64,000 nucleotides of DNA from Bryobacterales bacterium (lineage in GTDB: Bacteria > Acidobacteriota > Terriglobia > Bryobacterales > Bryobacteraceae). The translations under genes were made by a program, and so were the position numbers. This document shows positions 3,137 to 40,344 of the stretch, piece by piece (within the stretch, counting starts at the first letter, position 1; every line of letters starts with the position of its first letter). The stretch spans positions 4,875 through 68,874 of the forward strand of contig PLOR01000042.1 of the NCBI GenBank assembly GCA_003142185.1. The letters are read 5' to 3'. The notes beneath the pieces are model-generated. The model did no database searches and had not been told where the DNA came from. It worked only from the letters and a program-made list of their open reading frames with translations.

Positions 3137-3159
3137 GTGGGGCATGGTTTACCTTGCCC
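3137..3159. repeat. Short hairpin repeat, GGGCA...TGCCC family (copy 1)
   Basis: A variant of GGGCATGCTTTAGCTTGCCC, with GGGCA and TGCCC arms around a 10-base loop. Three other copies lie at 28999-29023, 33575-33596 and 58661-58684. This copy overlaps the ATG at 3144, which makes that ATG a poor start for the antitoxin gene that follows. Confidence 0.6.
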
Positions 3160-28319: not shown

Positions 28320-28352
28320 TGGCGATCCGGAATCTGCTACGATTTGATCCAC

Positions 28353-28739
28353 ATGCTCCGCCGTTCGCATCGGCCCATAACCGCGCGCGAAGCATCGAGA
28401 AAACTGTTGCGCGCTCCCAGGGATGCGCGGCGCGACGCCGCTTTCCGCAAAGCCATCCGCCAGATCCCTCGCGGCAAGGTAGCCACTTACGGGCAGGTCG
28501 CCGCCGCCTCCGGCTACCCGCTCTATCACCGTCAGGTGGCGCAGTTGCTGCGCGCTTCTCCCGTGGGATCTCTCCCCTGGCAACGCGTCTTGGGATCCGG
28601 CGGCGCCATCAAGCTCCATGGCGAAGCCGCCCTGGAACAGCGCATGCGCCTAGAAATGGAAGGAGTCCGCTTTCGCGGCAAGTGCGTAGACATGGACGCC
28701 CATCAGCACCGCTTCCGGCCCTGGGAATTGGAGGAATAG
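28353..28739 (+). CDS. Alkyltransferase-like protein (ATL, MGMT-family DNA-binding domain)
   Basis: A 128-residue protein with the MGMT C-terminal DNA-binding fold: FRKAIRQIPRGKVATYGQVA, then the active-site region SLPWQRVLGSGGAI. Methyltransferases of this family have PCHRV with the alkyl-accepting Cys; here Cys is Trp (PWQRV), as in alkyltransferase-like proteins. ATLs bind O6-alkylguanine, bend the DNA and hand the lesion to nucleotide excision repair. I chose the ATG at 28353; a TTG lies nine bases upstream. About 30 basic residues precede the fold and may be poorly conserved. Confidence 0.85.
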   Translation: MLRRSHRPITAREASRKLLRAPRDARRDAAFRKAIRQIPRGKVATYGQVAAASGYPLYHRQVAQLLRASPVGSLPWQRVLGSGGAIKLHGEAALEQRMRLEMEGVRFRGKCVDMDAHQHRFRPWELEE

Positions 28740-28998: not shown

Positions 28999-29023
28999 GG
29001 TGGGGCATGCTTTAGCTTTGCCC
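28999..29023. repeat. Short hairpin repeat, GGGCA...TGCCC family (copy 2)
   Basis: The sequence GGGGCATGCTTTAGCTTTGC matches the family with one inserted T. It lies 58 bases before the start of the alkaline-phosphatase-superfamily cluster. Confidence 0.6.
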
Positions 29024-29080: not shown

Positions 29081-29941
29081 ATGCCCGCAGCTTCCATGAC
29101 AAATCAGCCGGGTAACTACGTCCTGATCGTCTTGGACAGTTGCCGCTACGATTCGTTCACCGCGGCGCGGCCTGCCACCATGCGCAAACTGGGGCGCCTG
29201 GAAAAGCGCTGGTCCTACGCCTCCTGGACCGCGCCCTCGCACTTCAACCTGCTGATGGGCCTGATGCCGCATTCCAGTCCTCGCAACATTTTGGCAACCG
29301 AATACTACCAGCGCGAATTCCTAAAATTCAACCAGCGCCTCGGGCTTCAGAACCTCGAGTTCAAATCCTTCCTGCCCCGTTTGTATCTACCCGTGCTCCT
29401 CCGCCAAATCGGTTACCGAACGCGCGCCATGGTTTCGCTCCCGGTCTTGAATCCAGCCACCATCCTCAACACCGGCTTCGACTCCTGGCAACTCATGGAC
29501 CACCACAATGACATGCGCGCCATGCTGCCGAAACTCACGTTCTCCGAGCAAGCCCCCACGTTCTGGCTGCTCAACACGGGCGAAACGCATTATCCTTATG
29601 CGCTGCCCGGCGAGCCGCCGGACGAATGGCCGGCCATCAGCGGCGTGCACGGCGTCTTTCGCCATCTCGACGAGCTGATTGTCGGCGGCAAACTGCCGCG
29701 AGCGCGGCGCGGTACTTTCAGCGCCGCGAAACTGGCGGCTCTGCGCAGCCGTCAAATCGATGCCGTGAAATATCTGGATCGTGTCGTCGAGGAGTTATTC
29801 GACCTGCTGCCGAAGAATACTTACGTCACCATCACCTCCGACCACGGGGAATTGTTCGGTGAAGACGGATACTTCGGTCACGGCCCGATTCAGCATGAGA
29901 AGGTTTTCGAAGTCCCCTTCGTCGAAGGACGTCTCCGATGA
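29081..29941 (+). CDS. Sulfatase-fold alkaline phosphatase superfamily protein (cluster gene 1)
   Basis: A 286-residue protein with the alkaline phosphatase/sulfatase fold. Metal ligand blocks are VLIVLDSCRYDSF (D19), GETHYPY and SDHGELFGEDGYFGHG. At the nucleophile position the loop is WTAPSH, with T50 where arylsulfatases carry Cys or Ser in C/S-x-P-S-R. The enzyme would therefore resemble Thr-dependent phosphatases or phosphotransferases rather than a formylglycine sulfatase. It has no signal peptide. It is about half the length of typical sulfatases, and the C-terminal subdomain is missing. Its stop overlaps the next gene start (ATGA). ATG at 29096 is an alternative start. Confidence 0.75.
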   Translation: MPAASMTNQPGNYVLIVLDSCRYDSFTAARPATMRKLGRLEKRWSYASWTAPSHFNLLMGLMPHSSPRNILATEYYQREFLKFNQRLGLQNLEFKSFLPRLYLPVLLRQIGYRTRAMVSLPVLNPATILNTGFDSWQLMDHHNDMRAMLPKLTFSEQAPTFWLLNTGETHYPYALPGEPPDEWPAISGVHGVFRHLDELIVGGKLPRARRGTFSAAKLAALRSRQIDAVKYLDRVVEELFDLLPKNTYVTITSDHGELFGEDGYFGHGPIQHEKVFEVPFVEGRLR

Positions 29942-31803
29942 CTCACTGGGGACTCTTCGCGTATATCGGTCCGGGCGCCGGGTTCGCGTTTCTCGGCTCT
30001 TTTCTTTCTCTCGTATTGGCCGTGCTGGCCGGCATCGCATCGATGGTCGTCTGGCCCTTCCGCATGGCCTGGGCGCTACTCTCGAGACGCCGGCGAACGC
30101 AGTTTCGGAAGGCCATCTTCCTGGGATTCGACGGTCTCGATCCGGTCATTACCGAAAAGCTGATGGCCGAGGGCAAGCTACCCAACTTCGCGCGATTGCG
30201 AGACCGCGGATCTTATCGCCGTCTCCGGACCACCTTCCCCGCCCTTTCGCCGGTTGCGTGGTCCACGTTTGCCACCGGTGTCAATCCGGCAAAACATAAT
30301 ATCTTCGACTTTCTGAGCCGCGATCTGCGGACTTACGCGCCGGAGCTGTCATCGGCGAAGGTGTGGCCTGCCACGCGATTTCTGCGGATCGGCAAATGGA
30401 GCTTTCCGCTGTCTCGCGCGGCAGTGGAAATGCGGCGCAAGAGCGAGCCGTTCTGGAAGATACTGGGGGCTCACGCGGTCCGCAGCACGATTCTGCGGGT
30501 GCCCGTGACATTTCCTCCGGAAGCATTCAATGGACGCGAGCTATCCGCCATGTGCACGCCCGACCTGCTAGGCACGCAGGGAACTTACTCGCGCTTCACC
30601 GCTGCCGAGGGCGCGCTCGCGGGGCCCGAGGGAACTCACGTGCCATTCCGCGTTCAAGATACCCGCATCGAGATTCAGGGCGAATCCTATCCAATCGCCA
30701 TCGGCGAATACACGCCTTGGATCCGGCTCAAATTCGGCCGCGCGCACGGCATCGTGCGCTTTTTGCTGACCCGCCGCGAGCCGGAAATCGACCTCTACGC
30801 AGCACCCGTGCAAATCGACCCCGAGAATCCCGCCTTGCCCATTAGCCATCCCCCGTTCTATGCCATCTATCTGGCGAAGTTACTCGGGACTTATGCCACG
30901 CTCGGCCTCGCGGAAGACACCTGGGCTCTCAACGAAGGCGCCATCGGCGAAGACGCGTTTCTCCGCCAGGCGGAACTCATCCAAAAGGAGCGCGAGGCGA
31001 TGTTCTTCAGCGCGCTCGAACGAACCCGCCGCGGCGTGGTGGCCTGCGTCTTCGATACCACAGATCGCGTGCAGCACATGTTCCACGGGCGGCCGGAAGT
31101 AATCGAGCCGCTCTACTGCGATATGGATCGAATCGTGGGGAAGACACTTGCGTATGCGGATCCGGACACGGCCCTATTCATCCTCTCCGATCACGGCTTT
31201 TGCGCGTTCCGGCGAGGCGTCAACCTCAACTCCTGGCTGCTCCGCGAGGGCTACCTGTCCCTCGATGCGGGGCTCACTGCATCGGGCGAGTATCTGGAAG
31301 GGATCGACTGGACGAAGACGCGGGCCTACACATTCGGGCTCGGCGGCCTCTATCTGAATCTGCGCGGGCGTGAAGCACATGGCATCTTGTCCAAGCAGGA
31401 AGCGGCGAAACTGCTGGACGAGTTAGTCCGCAAACTCACCGGGTTGGCCGATGAAGAAACCGGTGAAACCGCCATTCAATCCGTGTATCGGGCTTCGGAT
31501 ATCTATCGGGGTCCGTACCTGAATGCCGCGCCGGATCTGATCGTCGGCTACGCACCGGGCTATCGCGCTTCCTGGGATGCGGCCACCGGACGAGTCACTT
31601 CCGCGATATTTGAGGACAACCGCAAGGCCTGGCGCGGAGATCATTGCGTCGATCCGCCGCTCGTGCCGGGTGTCCTTTTCTCCAATCTCAAGATCACCGC
31701 CGCGGACCCCGGCATCGAGGACATGGCGCCCACCGCGCTGAGTCTCTTCGGCGTCGAAGCGCCCGCGTGGATGGAGGGCAGACCAGTCATTGCCACGGCG
31801 TGA
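29938..31803 (+). CDS. Membrane-anchored type I phosphodiesterase-like AlkP superfamily protein (cluster gene 2)
   Basis: A 621-residue protein with an N-terminal membrane hairpin (hydrophobic from about 7 to 48, with Gly-rich turns) and a large catalytic domain of the phosphodiesterase/nucleotide pyrophosphatase type. The metal Asp is in FLGFDGLDP (D65), the likely nucleophile is S104 in PALSPVAWSTF, and HNIFDF, DTTDRVQHMF, LSDHGFCAF and RGDHCVD supply further ligands. Family enzymes cut phosphodiesters or transfer phosphoryl groups. The start overlaps gene 1 (ATGA), and gene 3 starts 14 bases before its stop. It is a clear paralogue of gene 3. The native substrate is not known. Confidence 0.8.
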   Translation: MTHWGLFAYIGPGAGFAFLGSFLSLVLAVLAGIASMVVWPFRMAWALLSRRRRTQFRKAIFLGFDGLDPVITEKLMAEGKLPNFARLRDRGSYRRLRTTFPALSPVAWSTFATGVNPAKHNIFDFLSRDLRTYAPELSSAKVWPATRFLRIGKWSFPLSRAAVEMRRKSEPFWKILGAHAVRSTILRVPVTFPPEAFNGRELSAMCTPDLLGTQGTYSRFTAAEGALAGPEGTHVPFRVQDTRIEIQGESYPIAIGEYTPWIRLKFGRAHGIVRFLLTRREPEIDLYAAPVQIDPENPALPISHPPFYAIYLAKLLGTYATLGLAEDTWALNEGAIGEDAFLRQAELIQKEREAMFFSALERTRRGVVACVFDTTDRVQHMFHGRPEVIEPLYCDMDRIVGKTLAYADPDTALFILSDHGFCAFRRGVNLNSWLLREGYLSLDAGLTASGEYLEGIDWTKTRAYTFGLGGLYLNLRGREAHGILSKQEAAKLLDELVRKLTGLADEETGETAIQSVYRASDIYRGPYLNAAPDLIVGYAPGYRASWDAATGRVTSAIFEDNRKAWRGDHCVDPPLVPGVLFSNLKITAADPGIEDMAPTALSLFGVEAPAWMEGRPVIATA

Positions 31804-33559
31804 ATGGGGTCTCGCGATCGCACTGGCTTTGCTTGCCGGCTGCGGCGGAGGCCAGTACAAACGAGTCATCGTCATTGGAGTTGACGGCATGGACCCGGCG
31901 TTCGTCGAGCGGCACTGGGCGGACCTCCCGAACTTGGCGCGGCTGCGGCAGCGCGGCAGTTACTCCCATCTGGAAACAACCGACCCTCCACAGAGTCCGG
32001 TCGCCTGGTCGACATTCATTACCGGGCTCGATCCGGGCGAACATGGCATCTTCGATTTCGTGCATCGCGACCCGGTGACGCTGGAGCCGTATCTCTCGAC
32101 CGATAAGACGCTCGGCCCGCGTTTCACACTGCATCTCGGGCCTTGGGAATTGCCCCTCTCGCGCTCGCGCGTGGTTTCACTGCGCAAGGGGCGCGCTTTC
32201 TGGGAGTATCTGTCGGACCGGAGCGTTCCAGTGACCATCGTGCGTATTCCCGCGAACTATCCGCCATCCGAAGCGGGCCGAGAACTTGCCGGAATGGGAA
32301 CCCCTGACCTGCGAGGCACCGAGGGTACCTTCACTTACTACGCGGACGATCCCGCCGAGACTTCACATGAAGTGTCGGGAGGTCTTATCCGAAAGGTGGA
32401 AGTCAAAGGCGGTCACGTGGAACTACGCGTGGAAGGTCCGCCCAACACTTTGCGCCGGGATCACTCTTACTCGGCGGTCCAACTGCTCGCGGACGTCGAT
32501 CCGGACCGGCCTTATGTCCGGCTGCAGGTTGCCAATCGGATGGCGATCGTGCGGCAGGGAGAATGGTCCGGGTGGCTGCCCGCCAATTTTCCGCTGCTGC
32601 CCCACATCGCCTCGGCCAGAGGCATGTTTCGTGTGTTTGCGAAGCAATTGCATCCGCGGTTCGAACTGTACGTCTCTCCGGTCAACGTCGATCCGGAGGA
32701 GCCAGCGCTGCCAATTTCGACTCCCGGCTCTTACGCGCGCGAGGTGGCCGCCAGGATGGGAAGGTGGTCCACGCTGGGCATTCCGGAAGATACCTCGGCG
32801 CTGCGTCAGGGAGTCTTCGACTTACCCGAGTTCCTGTCGCAGAGCCGTCTCGTCCTCGACGAGGAGCGGCGTCTTCTGGACGATTCGCTGCGGCGATTTA
32901 CGGGTGGCCTGCTGTTTTTCTATTTCTCGTCGGTCGATCAGAATTCCCATGTGCTGTGGGGCAAGCACGATGCGGAGTTACTGGATATATATCGCGCGGT
33001 GGATCGATCCATCGGCGAAGTCATGCGCCGCGAACCCGCAGCCGAACTGATGGTGATGTCGGACCATGGCTTCGCCGCGTTCAACGGCGCGGTCAACCTG
33101 AACACCTGGCTGGTTTCGAGAGGCCTCCGAACCAAAGCGTACGCGCTCGGGCTGAATGGTCTCTACCTTCTGGATAAGCGCGTCGAGCAGGAGGTGCGGC
33201 AGCAACTCCTTGACCTTCGCGACCCCGCCAACGGACACAGGATGATCGCGAGCGTCACTGAAACCAACCCATCGCCGGAGAACCGGAGCATCGCGCCGGA
33301 TCTGATTGTCGGCTACAGCGCCGGCTACCGCGCGTCCTGGCAAACCGCGTTGGGGGAAGCGCCGGAGGGGCTGGTTGTAGACAATGACGATGCGTGGATC
33401 GCGGATCACTGCATCGATCCGTGGGAAGTGCCGGCCGTGCTGTTCACCACGCGGGCGATTCGCGCGAAAGCACCGAGGTTGAAGGATCTGCCCGTCTCGT
33501 TGCTGGAATTATACGGCGTCGCCCGCCCGCCACAGATGACTGGGCAGTCGGTTTTTTGA
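31790..33559 (+). CDS. Lipoprotein type I phosphodiesterase-like AlkP superfamily protein (cluster gene 3)
   Basis: A 589-residue paralogue of cluster gene 2. It starts with a short lipoprotein signal whose lipobox LLAGC gives C18 as the anchor, so it should sit on a membrane. Catalytic blocks match gene 2: VIGVDGMDP (D32), PQSPVAWSTF with S69 as likely nucleophile, HGIFDF, SSVDQNSHVLW, MSDHGFAAF and IADHCIDP. I take the TTG at 31790 as start, overlapping gene 2 by 14 bases, since it opens a good lipoprotein signal (MPRREWGLAIALALLAGC). Loss of the large membrane hairpin suggests the paralogues act at different surfaces. Confidence 0.8.
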   Translation: MPRREWGLAIALALLAGCGGGQYKRVIVIGVDGMDPAFVERHWADLPNLARLRQRGSYSHLETTDPPQSPVAWSTFITGLDPGEHGIFDFVHRDPVTLEPYLSTDKTLGPRFTLHLGPWELPLSRSRVVSLRKGRAFWEYLSDRSVPVTIVRIPANYPPSEAGRELAGMGTPDLRGTEGTFTYYADDPAETSHEVSGGLIRKVEVKGGHVELRVEGPPNTLRRDHSYSAVQLLADVDPDRPYVRLQVANRMAIVRQGEWSGWLPANFPLLPHIASARGMFRVFAKQLHPRFELYVSPVNVDPEEPALPISTPGSYAREVAARMGRWSTLGIPEDTSALRQGVFDLPEFLSQSRLVLDEERRLLDDSLRRFTGGLLFFYFSSVDQNSHVLWGKHDAELLDIYRAVDRSIGEVMRREPAAELMVMSDHGFAAFNGAVNLNTWLVSRGLRTKAYALGLNGLYLLDKRVEQEVRQQLLDLRDPANGHRMIASVTETNPSPENRSIAPDLIVGYSAGYRASWQTALGEAPEGLVVDNDDAWIADHCIDPWEVPAVLFTTRAIRAKAPRLKDLPVSLLELYGVARPPQMTGQSVF

Positions 33560-33574
33560 CACGATAGTGTTCGG

Positions 33575-33596
33575 TAGGGCATGCTTTAGCTTGCCC
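33575..33596. repeat. Short hairpin repeat, GGGCA...TGCCC family (copy 3)
   Basis: This copy reads GGGCATGCTTTAGCTTGCCC, the reference form of the family. It sits in the 50-base gap between cluster gene 3 and the ribbon-helix-helix gene. Confidence 0.65.
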
Positions 33597-33609
33597 AAGA
33601 GTTGTACTT

Positions 33610-33804
33610 ATGCTTTCCAAGACCACGGTCAAGTTGAACAAGACGATCTGCGAACGGGCGCGGCGCGCGGCTAAGGCTGCCGGCTACAGCTCGCTCGAAG
33701 AGTTTATCGAGCATGCGATCGAGAAGGAATTGCCCAATCACGAACAGTCCGCGTCGAAAGAAGAATTGGTCCGCAAGCTGAAAGGGCTCGGCTATCTCAA
33801 ATGA
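33610..33804 (+). CDS. Small ribbon-helix-helix-like protein inside the AlkP cluster
   Basis: A 64-residue protein (KTTVKLNKTICERARRAAK, SSLEEFIEHAIEKEL) with the strand-helix-helix pattern of CopG-type DNA-binding proteins. The C-terminus ends KGLGYLK. Its TGA overlaps the ATG of the following large AlkP gene (ATGA), so the two are translationally coupled. No toxin gene follows, so it is not a simple antitoxin pair. It may regulate the cluster. The LGYL ending is close to LGSLGYTAGG found in the next protein at about 612-621, which could be chance or a shared binding motif. Confidence 0.65.
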   Translation: MLSKTTVKLNKTICERARRAAKAAGYSSLEEFIEHAIEKELPNHEQSASKEELVRKLKGLGYLK

Positions 33805-35996
33805 GAGCACTGGCCACGCTGGCTCCTTTGAGCGCGCTGTGCGGAATCGTTACGGCGTTCGTGTTCCGGCGGTTCGGGTCCAGCCATACGCGGCGAACCG
33901 TGAACCGGATCCTCGCGCACGTGCTGGAGCTGCGCCTGTTTCTCGACGAGCCCCGGCTGATCTGGAATGCGCAACGCGATCTGTTGCGTGAGAACCTGCG
34001 GCTATTCGGACAGATTGCCCTGCCGAGTCTGATCGCCGCGCCGTTGCTTGGTCTCATCATGTGGCAGGCCGATGCGGTTTACGGACGCGCGCCGCTCCGC
34101 GCGGGCGAGGCTGTCGTGGTGACCGCGCACGTCAAAGCCGGCGATCTCGCCCAAGTGCGGATGGAAGCTCCGGCGGACATTGCGATCGAAACTCCGGGCG
34201 TGCGAGTTCCCCGGTTGCGTGAGGTGAGCTGGCGCATCCGCCCGTTACGGCCTTTCAGCGGACGTCTGCGCGTAAACATCGATGCCGAACGGATCGATAT
34301 CCCATGGCCGCGCGCCACGGTGCTGGGCGTCTCCTGGATGGTGTGGTTCTTCGGCATCTCCTCAATCTCCGCTGTACTTGCGCCGCGATATCTGAAGCGC
34401 CACACTGCAATCCTGGCCATCCTCGTGTTTGCGCACACCCTAAGCGCCGCGGAAAAACCGCCCGTGGTTTTGATTTCGATCGACACATTGCGGGCCGATC
34501 ATCTCAGCGCGTACGGTTATACCAAGATTCGAACGCCTAACATCGATTCCTTCGGCGACAAAGGAACCATTTACCTGCGGATCGATTCACAGATCCCGCT
34601 GACTCAGCCATCGCACGCGTCGTTGATGACTTCGACTTACCCGTTTGAAAACCGTGTCGAGGAGAATTCCGAGAGCGTGCCGTCCGGGGCCGTCACGCTG
34701 GCTTCGGTGCTGCACGCGAACGGTTACCGGACCGCGGCGTTCATCGGAAGCATCATGCTCGACCGGCGTTACGGTCTGGACAAGGGGTTTGATCTCTATG
34801 ACAGCCCGTTTGAGATGGCAGCCGGTGAGATGCCGAATCCCTACTCCGCGCGTGTGCGGCGCGATGCCGCGCTGGTGACGCGGGCGGCGCGGCAATGGAT
34901 TGGCGAGAACCGCGGAGAGCCAGTGTTCGTGTTCCTCCACTTATACGATCTGCACACGCCGTATGCGCTGCCGCAGGTGGCCGGACTGACGCCTTCCGTA
35001 GCCGGGTATGACGCGGAGTTGGACCATGTCGACCAGGTGCTCGGGCGGCTGCGCGACGCGCTCCAGCGCGATGGGTTCTGGGACAAGGCACTGGTGATTC
35101 TGCTCGCCGACCACGGCGAGAGTTTAGGCGATCATGGCGAGACCAGCCATGGATATTTCATCTACGAAAGCACCATGCATGTGCCGCTGATCATCCACTG
35201 GCCCGCCAGTGCTTCCCAGTACCCGGCGCGGGTCACCGGGGCGGGCGGACTGATCGACGTGGCTCCGACGATTCTCGACTTTCTGCATATCGCGGCGCCG
35301 CCTTCGTTTGAAGGAGTAAGTCTGCTGTCCGAACATGGCGAGCGGATGATATATGGCGAGAGCGTTTACCCGCAGGAGACTTTCGGCTGGGCCGCTTTGC
35401 GATCTCTGCAATCGGGGACTTATAAGTACATCGATGCGCCCAAAGCGGAGTTGTACGACCTTTCGAAAGATCCGGGCGAGCGAGCGAACATCCTGCCGGC
35501 GCGCTCAGTGGAGGCACGGTCAATGAAAGCGCGGCTCGACGATCTGATGGCCCGGCACGCGGCGCCGCAGCATCAATCGTCGTCCGAACCTTCGGCGCAC
35601 ACGCGAGAGGTGCTTGGTTCGCTGGGGTACACGGCGGGCGGAAAACAAGCGGCGCGCAATCCGGCGGCCGATCCAAAAGACAAGCTGGCGGAACAGGAAG
35701 CTTACGAGCGCGGTCTGACACTGCTCTATACGGGGCGTTACGACCAGGCGATTCTCACCCTGCGGCGGATCGTGAGCGGCGACGCCCGGAACCTGCCGGC
35801 GCTGGGCGCGCTGGGCGAGGCGTATCTGCGCTCGGGCAATGCCGCGCGGGCTCTCGAGTTATGGCAACAGGCGCTGGAACGCGATCCGGCGTACCGGCCG
35901 GCCGCGGAATCGATCGGCGAATACTGGCTGGCGCGCAAGGATTTCGACAAGGCTTGCCGGTTTGTGCCAGCCGCGCCGCAATGCAAGGGGCGGTAA
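33801..35996 (+). CDS. Membrane-anchored sulfatase-fold protein with TPR C-terminus (cluster gene 4)
   Basis: A 731-residue fusion. Residues 1-215 are a membrane module with hydrophobic segments at about 5-22, 72-90 and 172-215, separated by charged stretches (RTVNRILAHVLELRLFLDEP, LRENLRLFGQI). Residues about 220-575 are a sulfatase-fold domain: ISIDTLRADHLSAYGY with metal Asp D228, LTQPSHASLMTS with T268 at the nucleophile position, HLYDLHTPY and ADHGESLGDHGE. T268 replaces the Cys/Ser of sulfatases, as in cluster gene 1. Residues about 645-725 hold two to three TPR units. The catalytic domain should face out of the cytoplasm. Coupled to the ribbon-helix-helix gene by ATGA. Confidence 0.82.
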   Translation: MRALATLAPLSALCGIVTAFVFRRFGSSHTRRTVNRILAHVLELRLFLDEPRLIWNAQRDLLRENLRLFGQIALPSLIAAPLLGLIMWQADAVYGRAPLRAGEAVVVTAHVKAGDLAQVRMEAPADIAIETPGVRVPRLREVSWRIRPLRPFSGRLRVNIDAERIDIPWPRATVLGVSWMVWFFGISSISAVLAPRYLKRHTAILAILVFAHTLSAAEKPPVVLISIDTLRADHLSAYGYTKIRTPNIDSFGDKGTIYLRIDSQIPLTQPSHASLMTSTYPFENRVEENSESVPSGAVTLASVLHANGYRTAAFIGSIMLDRRYGLDKGFDLYDSPFEMAAGEMPNPYSARVRRDAALVTRAARQWIGENRGEPVFVFLHLYDLHTPYALPQVAGLTPSVAGYDAELDHVDQVLGRLRDALQRDGFWDKALVILLADHGESLGDHGETSHGYFIYESTMHVPLIIHWPASASQYPARVTGAGGLIDVAPTILDFLHIAAPPSFEGVSLLSEHGERMIYGESVYPQETFGWAALRSLQSGTYKYIDAPKAELYDLSKDPGERANILPARSVEARSMKARLDDLMARHAAPQHQSSSEPSAHTREVLGSLGYTAGGKQAARNPAADPKDKLAEQEAYERGLTLLYTGRYDQAILTLRRIVSGDARNLPALGALGEAYLRSGNAARALELWQQALERDPAYRPAAESIGEYWLARKDFDKACRFVPAAPQCKGR

Positions 35997-38391: not shown

Positions 38392-40344
38392 TTACTTGGC
38401 GTGTGTTTCGGCGGCCAGCTTGGCCTGGGCTTCGTCCAGCTTGCGGTTGACGCTGGCCATTTCTTCCGGGTCGGCTTCCTGCTGAGCGGCCTTCTGGAAT
38501 TCTCGCAGCGAGTCCTGCCATTGCGCGATGGCCTCCTTGGTCTTGCCCAGTTTCAGGTACACATCGCCCAGGTGGTCGCGCACCGTCGGGTCCGGCATAC
38601 GCTCCAGGGCGCGCTCCAGCAACCCGCGAGCGTCGTCCAGTTTGCCCTGACGAAAATAAACCCAGCCAAGGCTGTCCAGGTAAGCGCCGTTGTCGGGTTC
38701 CAGATCCACCGCCCGCTTGATCAGATCGTAGGCTTCCTCCAGCCGCACGTTCCGGTCGGCGAGCATGTAACCGAGATAATTCAACGCGCCCGCATTCTTG
38801 GGGTTCAGCTCCAGCACCTTGCGGAAAGCGGCCTCGCTTTGATCGAATTGCTTCTGCCGTTCCAGGCCGGCCCCGCGCATGAAGTATGCCTGCTCTTTTT
38901 CTCTACCGGTAGAGGCAAACTGGTCGGCGCGGTCGAGCGCCTTCATCATTTCATTCCAGTGTTTGCTTTGCTCATAAACCTCGGCCAGAGCCAACTGCAG
39001 TTCGCAACTGGCGCCGCGGTTGTCGGCGAACTTCTTGGTGCCGGCCTGGGCTTCGCGCTCCGCCGCGGCCAAGTCGCCGGCAGCGAGGTCGGTATCCACA
39101 ATCTGCGCCGCGGCCTCCACCTGCCCATCGTCGTCGGTCTCGATGGTGGCGTATTGGCGGAAGGCATCGATAGCGGCCGGGTACTGCTTGGCGTCGCGAT
39201 ACAGGATGGCTAAATGTCTAACCAGGCGGGCGCGGACCCTGGCGTCGTCGGCGTTGTAATTGCGGTGCGGTAAAGCATCCAAGAGGGATTTCATGGCCGC
39301 GATAGCCTCGCCGGTCTTACCTTCCGCGTCCAGCAGGAAAACGTGTTCCTCGCGCACGCCGACGCTGTCGGCGTCCAGCAGTTGGGCCGCGGCGAGCGCC
39401 TTCTCGGCGGCCGGATAGTCGTGTTTCACGCGATACAGGAGCGCCACCCGCAGCCGGTAAAGAGGTTCGCGCGGGTTGTCGGTAGCGAGCTGCTTGTAAA
39501 TCTTCAGCGAATCGTCGAACTGGCCGCCCTCGAGCAGGTCCTCCGCCAACCCCTTCTGGAGGCCTTCATCGTCCGGGTCCAGCGCAACCGCCCGCTGGAG
39601 CGCCTCGGCGGCCGACTTGAAGTCCTTCATGCTCTCGTACTGCTGGGCGAGGACGCCGAGCGTGCGCTCGTTCGGGCTCTTGTCGGTAAGCGTTTTCAGC
39701 TTTTCCAGGGCCTTGGCGGAGTCGCCCGTGTCGGCATAGACCGCAGCCAGACCCATCAACGCATCCTCATTGTCCGGTTCTGCCTGGAGGGCGCTGTTGA
39801 ACGCCTTCTCCGCCGCCACCGAATCGCTGGAGGCGCGGTAGAGGCGCCCCAGGTACGACCAGCTTTCGGCGTCCTTGGGGGCCTGCTCGGTGACTTTCCG
39901 ATATTGATCGATCGCCTTGTGCAGATAGTTCTCGTCCATCTTGGCGTTGGGCGTGTCGCCGGTCGCCAGGTGAACGTAGATCTGCGCCAGCGTGCGCCGC
40001 GCGTCCAGGTTGGCGGGGTCCAGCTTGAGAAGGCCCTCGGCCTGATCCACCGCGTCGGCCAAGCGGTTGGTCTTGATGTAGAGATCGGTCAGTTCTTCCA
40101 GAATCAACCCGGCCGTGGGGTCGAGCTTGATGGCTTCCTGGTAGTAGTGGATTGCCTTGGTGACATCTTCCCGGCTGCCCTCCGCCGCCGCCAGTTCGGC
40201 ATATAGCCGGCCCATGGCAAAATTGTAGTAGGCCCCGGCTTTGTCATCGGAAGCCGGGGTGGGCGGCGCGGCCGGCGCGCTCTGAGCGAAACTGGCGCAA
40301 GCCAGCGAACCGGCCAGGAAGAGCACATTCACTGAGCGAATCAT
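38392..40344 (-). CDS. Exported TPR-repeat protein
   Basis: A 650-residue protein with a signal peptide (MIRSVNVLFLAGSLACASFA) and an almost continuous array of TPR units from about 38 to 625. Examples are AIHYYQEAIKLDPTAGLILE, SWSYLGRLYRASSDSVAAEK, ALNYLGYMLADRNVRLEEAY and YLDSLGWVYFRQGKLDDARG. The C-terminal 30 residues are a charged helix. Such large exported TPR proteins act as scaffolds in envelope assembly or secretion. It is monocistronic. No enzymatic domain was seen. Confidence 0.82.
   Translation of the reverse strand: MIRSVNVLFLAGSLACASFAQSAPAAPPTPASDDKAGAYYNFAMGRLYAELAAAEGSREDVTKAIHYYQEAIKLDPTAGLILEELTDLYIKTNRLADAVDQAEGLLKLDPANLDARRTLAQIYVHLATGDTPNAKMDENYLHKAIDQYRKVTEQAPKDAESWSYLGRLYRASSDSVAAEKAFNSALQAEPDNEDALMGLAAVYADTGDSAKALEKLKTLTDKSPNERTLGVLAQQYESMKDFKSAAEALQRAVALDPDDEGLQKGLAEDLLEGGQFDDSLKIYKQLATDNPREPLYRLRVALLYRVKHDYPAAEKALAAAQLLDADSVGVREEHVFLLDAEGKTGEAIAAMKSLLDALPHRNYNADDARVRARLVRHLAILYRDAKQYPAAIDAFRQYATIETDDDGQVEAAAQIVDTDLAAGDLAAAEREAQAGTKKFADNRGASCELQLALAEVYEQSKHWNEMMKALDRADQFASTGREKEQAYFMRGAGLERQKQFDQSEAAFRKVLELNPKNAGALNYLGYMLADRNVRLEEAYDLIKRAVDLEPDNGAYLDSLGWVYFRQGKLDDARGLLERALERMPDPTVRDHLGDVYLKLGKTKEAIAQWQDSLREFQKAAQQEADPEEMASVNRKLDEAQAKLAAETHAK

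Follow-up and report, generated by a model that had tools for sequence, protein, structure and literature searches.

The closest described relatives of the gene cluster treated here are spread over several protein families. In the alkaline phosphatase (AP) superfamily, these are the nucleotide pyrophosphatase/phosphodiesterase (NPP) enzymes (PDB 2gsn, 6aek) and phosphonoacetate hydrolase PhnA, as well as the phosphoethanolamine transferase EptA and other enzymes of the sulfatase fold. AP-superfamily members of the Pfam families concerned often act hydrolytically, and formylglycine sulfatases convert the Cys or Ser of a C/S-x-P-x-R motif to formylglycine. Ribbon-helix-helix (RHH) proteins are commonly repressors. 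On the membrane side, the nearest relatives are the archaeal YidC-like DUF106 protein MJ0480 (PDB 5c8j) and eukaryotic EMC3/TMCO1, of the Oxa1 superfamily. Passages in three articles assign the three-helix type of this superfamily to archaea and the endoplasmic reticulum (ER) (PMC8675477, PMC8887752, PMC7618853), and a passage in another describes YidC proteins as retaining a positive groove residue (PMC8920935). Members of these families meet in a five-gene cluster of a Bryobacterales bacterium (assembly GCA_003142185.1, 5.79 Mb in 119 contigs). It lies at positions 29081 to 35996 of a 64,000-nucleotide stretch of contig PLOR01000042.1, hereafter the window.

The conserved core of the cluster consists of two phosphodiesterase-like paralogues (g2 and g3), a 64-residue RHH protein and an Oxa1/EMC3-type membrane protein (c2), kept in the same order across several phyla. 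That these four form one unit is close to certain, and the anatomy of the core is well supported, with high confidence. The novelty lies in the assembly: its parts come from known superfamilies, and its function is one that we infer. The initial annotation knew of no characterised system of this composition, and searches of the open PMC literature on the module, its C-terminal motif, COG3379 and bacterial DUF106/EMC3 proteins yielded no description of it, subscription journals being mostly outside that coverage.

Organization and conservation of the core

All five genes lie on the forward strand. They begin with g1 (29081..29941; 286 aa), a soluble AP-superfamily enzyme of sulfatase/EptA type assigned from the open reading frame (ORF) list and Pfam. 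Pfam and alignments identify g2 (29938..31803; 621 aa) as a core phosphodiesterase-like AP-superfamily enzyme with an N-terminal YIGPGAG sequence and a transmembrane (TM) anchor, and g3 (31790..33559; 589 aa, TTG start) as its core paralogue, a lipoprotein (LAGC). The RHH gene (33610..33804; 64 aa, C-terminal GLGY tail) was classified by alignments, AlphaFold2 and structural neighbours. In g5 (33801..35996; 731 aa), Pfam and the c2 profile reveal a c2 membrane protein joined, through a former signal peptide, to a sulfatase and TPRs. An ORF check agreed with the coordinates first given for the five genes, with the ATGA overlaps at 29938 and 33801 and with the overlap of 14 bases at 31790-31803. 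Pfam matches were Sulfatase for g1 (E 2e-13), Phosphodiest for g2 (E 7.8e-32) and g3 (E 3.3e-34), and Sulfatase (E 1.3e-37) with TPR for g5; no NCBIfam model exceeded its cut-off for any of the five proteins. The initial annotation had seen a unit of four AP-superfamily enzymes, a description that gives way to the core named above.

Linkage within the core is far above chance. Among 297 Acidobacteriota genomes, 77 were c2-positive, and 40 loci were fetched from these. With one label per gene and more than 400 bits required of enzymes, all 40 show the order enzyme-RHH-c2, 35 of them with two enzymes directly before the RHH gene. When kinship is ignored and g2 is called at our chosen threshold of at least 900 bits, c2 and g2 occur together in 72 of the 297 genomes, c2 alone in 5, g2 alone in 2 and neither in 218; the five c2-only genomes include the window's own, whose g2 is shorter. 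The same order recurs in loci seeded on g2, which represent the best 80 matches of the g2 scan (L149-L228) and set a taxonomic range of at least that seen: 26 of 45 named loci, mostly of Bryobacterales type (L149-L193), and 29 of 35 from other Acidobacteriota and other phyla (L194-L228). The latter include records labelled Dadabacteria, Thermodesulfobacteriota, Poribacteria, Omnitrophota and Scalindua, names that are taken from the records and may be wrong for some metagenome-assembled genomes (MAGs). The suggestion that the gene set is conserved beyond Solibacter relatives is thereby borne out. Four of the six misses among these 35 lie at contig ends (L196, L200, L202, L221); one has a cut g3 followed by RHH-c2-g2 (L222), and one carries g2 alone (L209). 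Rearranged modules, with g2 after c2 rather than before g3, are found in L140, L204, L218, L222 and L225. The nearest named relatives of the window's genome are Bryobacterales/Acidobacteriia MAGs, the closest among the best 80 matches being L149 (78% in g2).

The two paralogues carry matching active sites. Invariant residues are D65, S104, D376, H380, D418, H419 and H569 in g2 (27 sequences), and S69, D383, H387, D425, H426 and H540 in g3 (26 sequences). In the invariant alignment columns the NPP-type two-metal set of D, T/S, D, H, D, H and H is complete in both; the assignment of individual residues to metals, and of the pair to an NPP-like class, is one we presume from NPP structures. Both enzymes fall in PF01663 with NPP and PhnA, and a g2 profile searched against the PDB matched NPPs, PhnA, phosphoglycerate mutase and sulfatases, all weakly. 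They share the D, S, D, H, D, H, H set with NPP enzymes but differ in the nucleophile, which is Ser instead of Thr, in the cytosol-facing anchor predicted for g2 and in their fixed gene partners. Their NCBIfam PhnA scores are 20 and 22.7, against a cut-off of 407.55.

The nucleophiles proposed for the four enzymes (T50 in g1, S104 in g2, S69 in g3 and T268 in g5) are all present. The first three are invariant in alignments of their families (25, 27 and 26 sequences, respectively), and T268 is read from the g5 sequence alone. Ten residues after the nucleophile stands a G in g1, g2 and g3 and an S in g5. As originally stated, the formylglycine Cys is absent from all four: the motif position is taken up by T50 in TAPSH (g1), T268 in TQPSH (g5), and S104 and S69 in SPVAW (g2 and g3), and none of these is a formylglycine motif.

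Instead of the membrane hairpin first ascribed to its N-terminus, g2 has a single hydrophobic segment at residues 13-42. The net charge averages +8.0 after this segment and -0.3 before it, the downstream part being far more positive in 27 of 27 sequences; the catalytic domain is therefore predicted to face the cytosol. The window's g3 has a LAGC lipobox, and many homologues start with a lipobox or a Tat-like RRxFIK-type signal (N-termini judged by eye), so that g3 is taken to be outside the cytoplasm. The initial proposal that the enzymes act at the membrane can thus be kept for g2 and g3; g1, and probably the catalytic part of g2, would face the cytosol. A midpoint-rooted tree separates g2 from g3 into mutually exclusive clades, with 44 and 43 tips and supports of 0.92 and 1.0, which indicates from sequence that the pair is older than its carrier lineages or was transferred together.

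The membrane protein c2 and its fusions

By similarity, c2 belongs to the Oxa1/DUF106/EMC3 group and carries an added Ig-like domain. A profile built from 52 c2 proteins matched MJ0480 in the PDB at E 7.5e-11 over TM1, the hairpin and TM2, with TM3 aligned separately and weakly. This was the sole PDB match below 0.006, the next (0.0064) falling in the c2 insert, and another c2 profile search gave MJ0480 at E 1e-9. The Pfam family EMC3_TMCO1 was matched by 13 of the 52 members at E up to 0.1 (best 1.5e-6), whereas other families matched at most two; in an earlier c2 set it was matched by 6 of 21 at E up to 1 (best 0.0017). The score displayed for one member, 16.9 bits, is under the Pfam cut-off of 27.1, and at E up to 0.01 the model misses the c2 of the window's own genome, for which it is too remote. 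Applied to 14 control genomes, the same family was positive in three archaea and in no bacterium.

An AlphaFold2 model of a standalone c2 (L207, pLDDT 96.2) places helices at residues 3-25, 28-47, 52-95 and 231-245 around a beta region at 105-230. The model contains the three TM helices of the core, and the helical hairpin that lies between TM1 and TM2 is predicted to be cytosolic because it is rich in K and R. The insert resembles Ig-like domains of invasin (1cwv; Z 6.4, rmsd 2.3, 78 aligned), filamin (4m9p; Z 6.1, rmsd 2.4, 75 aligned) and the S-layer protein SbsC (5ftx; Z 6.0, rmsd 2.6, 76 aligned). In the TM cores (residues 3-22, 76-89 and 229-246), K and R amount to 0% across the 52 sequences and are present at helix ends only. 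An identification of c2 as a plain YidC was rejected, since the window's genome encodes an ordinary YidC elsewhere and c2 lacks the charge of the TM groove. Like MJ0480 and EMC3/TMCO1, c2 has the TM1-hairpin-TM2 arrangement, a TM3 weakly detected by profile, and matches to EMC3_TMCO1. Unlike them it is bacterial, has its TM2 and TM3 separated by an Ig-like insert some 120 residues long, and resides in an enzyme operon, in some cases as a fusion with an AP-superfamily enzyme.

What usually follows the RHH gene in relatives is a gene for c2 as a membrane protein of 250-300 residues, mostly standalone and with no sulfatase. The window differs. The c2 profile covers residues 2-165 of g5 (G000:C31:38678-39169, E 5e-59) and 163-200 (39161-39274, E 6.3e-6), and g5 is therefore read as c2, a signal-peptide-like junction, a sulfatase and TPRs. 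Its c2 domain (33801..34400, forward strand like the other parts) is of Oxa1/DUF106/EMC3 type with a shortened periplasmic insert. It runs into the junction RYLKRHTAILAILVFAHTLSAA (34386..34451), apparently a former sulfatase signal peptide that would now serve as an extra TM. The sulfatase-fold domain with its Thr268 nucleophile (34464..35288, residues 222-496) and the TPR region (35724..35954, residues about 642-718) follow from Pfam, and an LGY motif stands between them (35622..35630, residues 608-610). The sulfatase and TPR parts had been recognised at the outset; residues 1-200, a separate conserved membrane family, were overlooked. This fusion is shared by L149, the closest relative, where it likewise forms a single open frame. 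The sequences indicate that the window's lineage joined c2 to a Thr-nucleophile sulfatase-TPR protein. In L152, a separate fusion places c2 ahead of g3 in one frame, with an apparent former lipobox signal at the joint. In two loci a sulfatase-like gene with an LGY tail (L195, 14526-16418; L206, 14461-16350) separates c2 from the RHH gene, an arrangement from which the window's c2-sulfatase fusion may have arisen.

The RHH protein, LGY tails and accessory genes

The RHH label in the initial annotation is backed by an AlphaFold2 model (pLDDT 85), which has two helices, a third in the tail and an extended N-terminus to which the monomer model assigns no strand. Most of its structural neighbours are RHH proteins: PutA (2gpe_D; Z 6.1, rmsd 2.7, 48 aligned), NikR (2hza_A; Z 6.0, rmsd 4.7, 62 aligned), CopG (2cpg_B; Z 5.4, rmsd 2.0, 45 aligned), Arc (1myk_B; Z 5.4, rmsd 1.8, 45 aligned) and TacA, all with Z below 8. 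Sequence models match weakly, with RHH_1 at E 0.036 for the window protein and NikR at E 0.37-0.42 for the profile. The model supports an RHH-like fold, and we count it as having the strand-helix-helix arrangement. Across 50 sequences K8, G25, Y26, S28 and E31 are invariant, as are G59, L60, G61 and Y62 of the tail. A toxin-antitoxin role was rejected for want of an adjacent toxin gene, none of the five proteins matching a toxin family in Pfam or PADLOC. Anti-phage defence was likewise set aside, PADLOC giving only a weak DpdC match (E 0.0019) on the 64-residue protein.

The LGY tail is not restricted to the RHH protein. In the fetched loci it ends 26 of 65 sulfatase-like proteins, 4 of 13 APS (adenosine 5′-phosphosulfate) kinases and 4 of 4 CysD proteins, although for CysD it may be the ordinary end of the protein. 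LGY[ILVMF] within three residues of the end was found in 130 of 1917 predicted genes and in none for each of five permuted motifs; the genes were counted with a simple in-house caller, repeated genomes included. The signal is in part common to sulfatases in general, since the two LGY tails among 461 control genes are both on proteins that are sulfatase-like by eye. The excess near the core becomes modest when the 31 RHH genes, which were picked by a motif, are left out (12 of 450 genes in core loci, 2 of 461 in controls; Fisher p 0.006). Four APS kinases (L119, L138, L208, L220) end in an EEE..RL..LGY(I/L) tail of the same kind as that of the RHH protein.

A 20-bp near-palindromic repeat, GGGCATGCTTTAGCTTGCCC, occurs at positions 29003-29022, 33577-33596 and 3140-3159 of the window with 0-2 mismatches, and copies sit just upstream of g1 and of the RHH gene. 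Its candidacy as an RHH operator was rejected, since a looser pattern, GGGCATGCTTTAGCTTNNNC, is spread genome-wide. With 51 matches in the genome and none for the reversed control, the repeat looks like an interspersed REP-type element.

At the upstream end, g1 is a lineage-specific add-on to the core module. Aligned g1 sequences (25) share invariant D19, T50, H170, D254, H255 and H267, a set which we take to be EptA/sulfatase-like, and g1 has no hydrophobic segment. Both g1 and g5 resemble EptA and sulfatase-fold enzymes in combining a sulfatase fold with a Thr nucleophile. Unlike EptA, g1 is soluble and only 286 residues long, and it scores 15.6 with the EptA model against a cut-off of 561. 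Its score with the STM4013/SEN3800 family is 66.6 bits, below the cut-off of 250, and its profile has no PDB match at E up to 0.01. Matches to g1 were found in 42 of 121 relatives, mostly at 65-73% identity, the range of the full-length ones. Of 40 g1-seeded loci, 16 have the enzyme-RHH-c2 order and three more have c2 ahead of RHH. Obligate membership of g1 was rejected, since it is without the core in 15 of the 40 (one of which, L071, ends at a contig edge). Among the loci of other Acidobacteriota and other phyla (L194-L228), none of 35 has a g1 orthologue above 300 bits; weak hits of 25-36 bits occur only in L194, L195, L202 and L206. Solitary g1 orthologues in L055-L060, L067, L069 and L070 are 68-70% identical to the window's g1 and strongly conserved without the core; their genomic surroundings differ, and several have a sulfatase, thioesterases or an oxidoreductase as neighbours. 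In many other Acidobacteriota, a third phosphodiesterase-like enzyme of about 430 residues occupies g1's position upstream of g2 (18 of 40 loci). By eye, 12 of 13 such paralogues start with few or K/R-rich residues and no signal; a scripted hydrophobicity flag was raised in 4 of the 13 and extends into a catalytic strand.

Of the 40 c2-seeded loci, 22 have genes for sulfate activation, removal of 3′-phosphoadenosine 5′-phosphate (PAP) or sulfotransfer no more than about 10 kb away, as do 11 of the 35 loci L194-L228. In stretches longer than 15 kb the counts are 19 of 32 for core loci and 1 of 26 for controls (p 5e-6, kinship ignored); the controls come from the same genomes, most starting at contig starts, and the single positive is a weak CysN-like hit. 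Among 98 proteins hand-picked from 148 near neighbours, the commonest Pfam families were Phosphodiest (22), Sulfotransfer_3 (10), Sulfatase (9) and SGSH_C (8). Many loci thus resemble known sulfation loci dependent on 3′-phosphoadenosine 5′-phosphosulfate (PAPS), with CysD/CysN, APS kinase or sulfotransferase genes near the core. Unlike in those loci, however, the sulfation genes stand outside the conserved core and do not adjoin it in the window. Upstream of the cluster, positions 28344-28739 encode an alkyltransferase-like (ATL) protein with the MGMT DNA-binding domain (Pfam PF01035). It is probably of ATL type, because it has PWQRV at what we take to be the position of the catalytic Cys of methyltransferases.

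Proposed role and competing explanations

We tentatively infer that the module is a membrane-spanning unit for ester modification of the envelope, built around an Oxa1-type scaffold, a reading that may well be right without yet being probable. Its target would be an envelope glycan or lipid, whose phospho- or sulfo-ester groups it would process at the cytoplasmic membrane, a chemistry suggested by the neighbour genes and the active sites. At the cytosolic face g2 would act, with g1 or the third paralogue, and at the outer face g3 together with LGY-tailed or c2-fused sulfatases. The transmembrane scaffold holding the exported enzymes would be c2, because two separate fusions, one in the window and L149 and the other in L152, put an exported AP-superfamily enzyme after it. 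The RHH protein would be a regulator, perhaps tethered through its LGY tail.

Several observations weigh against this proposal. The module has no known substrate, activity or mutant. Near the module, sulfation genes are rare in the window's own lineage, being found in 5 of the 45 loci L149-L193 and 2 of the 40 g1-seeded loci, and a comparison of the 64-kb window with six reference proteins gave only a weak CysN-like match. Since the genome's one APS kinase and several sulfotransferase matches lie elsewhere, the sulfo part of the proposal would hold for the window by analogy. In some Bryobacterales-type loci with ample flanks (L161, L178, L180, L181, L185, L187, L193), g2 stands without the rest nearby. 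Foldseek and VIA listed no Oxa1 protein for c2, because the Ig-like insert (97-180) dominated and filled the lists, and this result counts neither way.

The enzymes might, instead, scavenge nutrients by freeing phosphorus or sulfur from phosphodiesters or sulfate esters, with the RHH protein as a starvation repressor and c2 as an anchor only. The frequent hydrolytic activity of these enzyme families, the export signals on g3 homologues and the usual repressor function of RHH proteins are all in keeping with this idea. It is nevertheless unlikely, as the cytosol, where g1, the catalytic part of g2 and most third paralogues seem to lie, is an odd site for scavenging, c2 is a near-obligate partner, and sulfation families exceed transport (MIP, 2 members) in the top 25 of 117 neighbour families. 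Rather unlikely, too, is that c2 functions as an insertase or chaperone of EMC3 type that would serve module or other envelope proteins in bacteria, with the enzymes as clients or quality-control partners. Such a role would suit its Oxa1-superfamily match and topology, its co-occurrence with g2 and its fusion to exported enzymes. Against it stand the TM cores free of K and R in 52 sequences, where a passage on YidC reports a retained positive groove residue (PMC8920935), the ordinary lipobox or Tat-like signals of g3 and the YidC already encoded in the genome. That the AP-superfamily paralogues stand in tandem by chance and share no pathway is highly improbable. Independent occurrence in relatives, which the initial annotation had named as grounds for abandoning a common pathway, is seen for g1 and for some solitary g2 loci; c2 and the RHH gene are never apart in the 40 c2-seeded loci, and the collinearity of g2, RHH and c2 and their co-occurrence across phyla contradict chance.

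Within the scaffold proposal, a bolder version, which we regard as improbable, is that a bacterial EMC3-type branch of the Oxa1 superfamily was converted from an insertase to a transmembrane coupler of phosphodiester- and sulfo-ester-processing enzymes on both faces. The C-terminal helix with its LGY(I/L) end, a portable element common to the RHH protein, to sulfatase-like enzymes and to some APS kinases, would then serve as a docking code and bring the regulator, PAPS synthesis and the enzymes that process esters together at a single site on the membrane.

A three-helix Oxa1 protein of the archaeal/ER type, which the window's genome encodes on top of an ordinary YidC and which is retained in a fixed operon across bacterial phyla, would widen a family central to the evolution of membrane insertases. 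The module would also offer a tractable bacterial system in which the Oxa1 fold may do a non-insertase job. It is a widely kept set of partners, undescribed as far as searches of the open PMC literature show, for phosphodiesterase-like enzymes of a large and uncharacterised group, and its carriers are lineages with poorly known surface chemistry.

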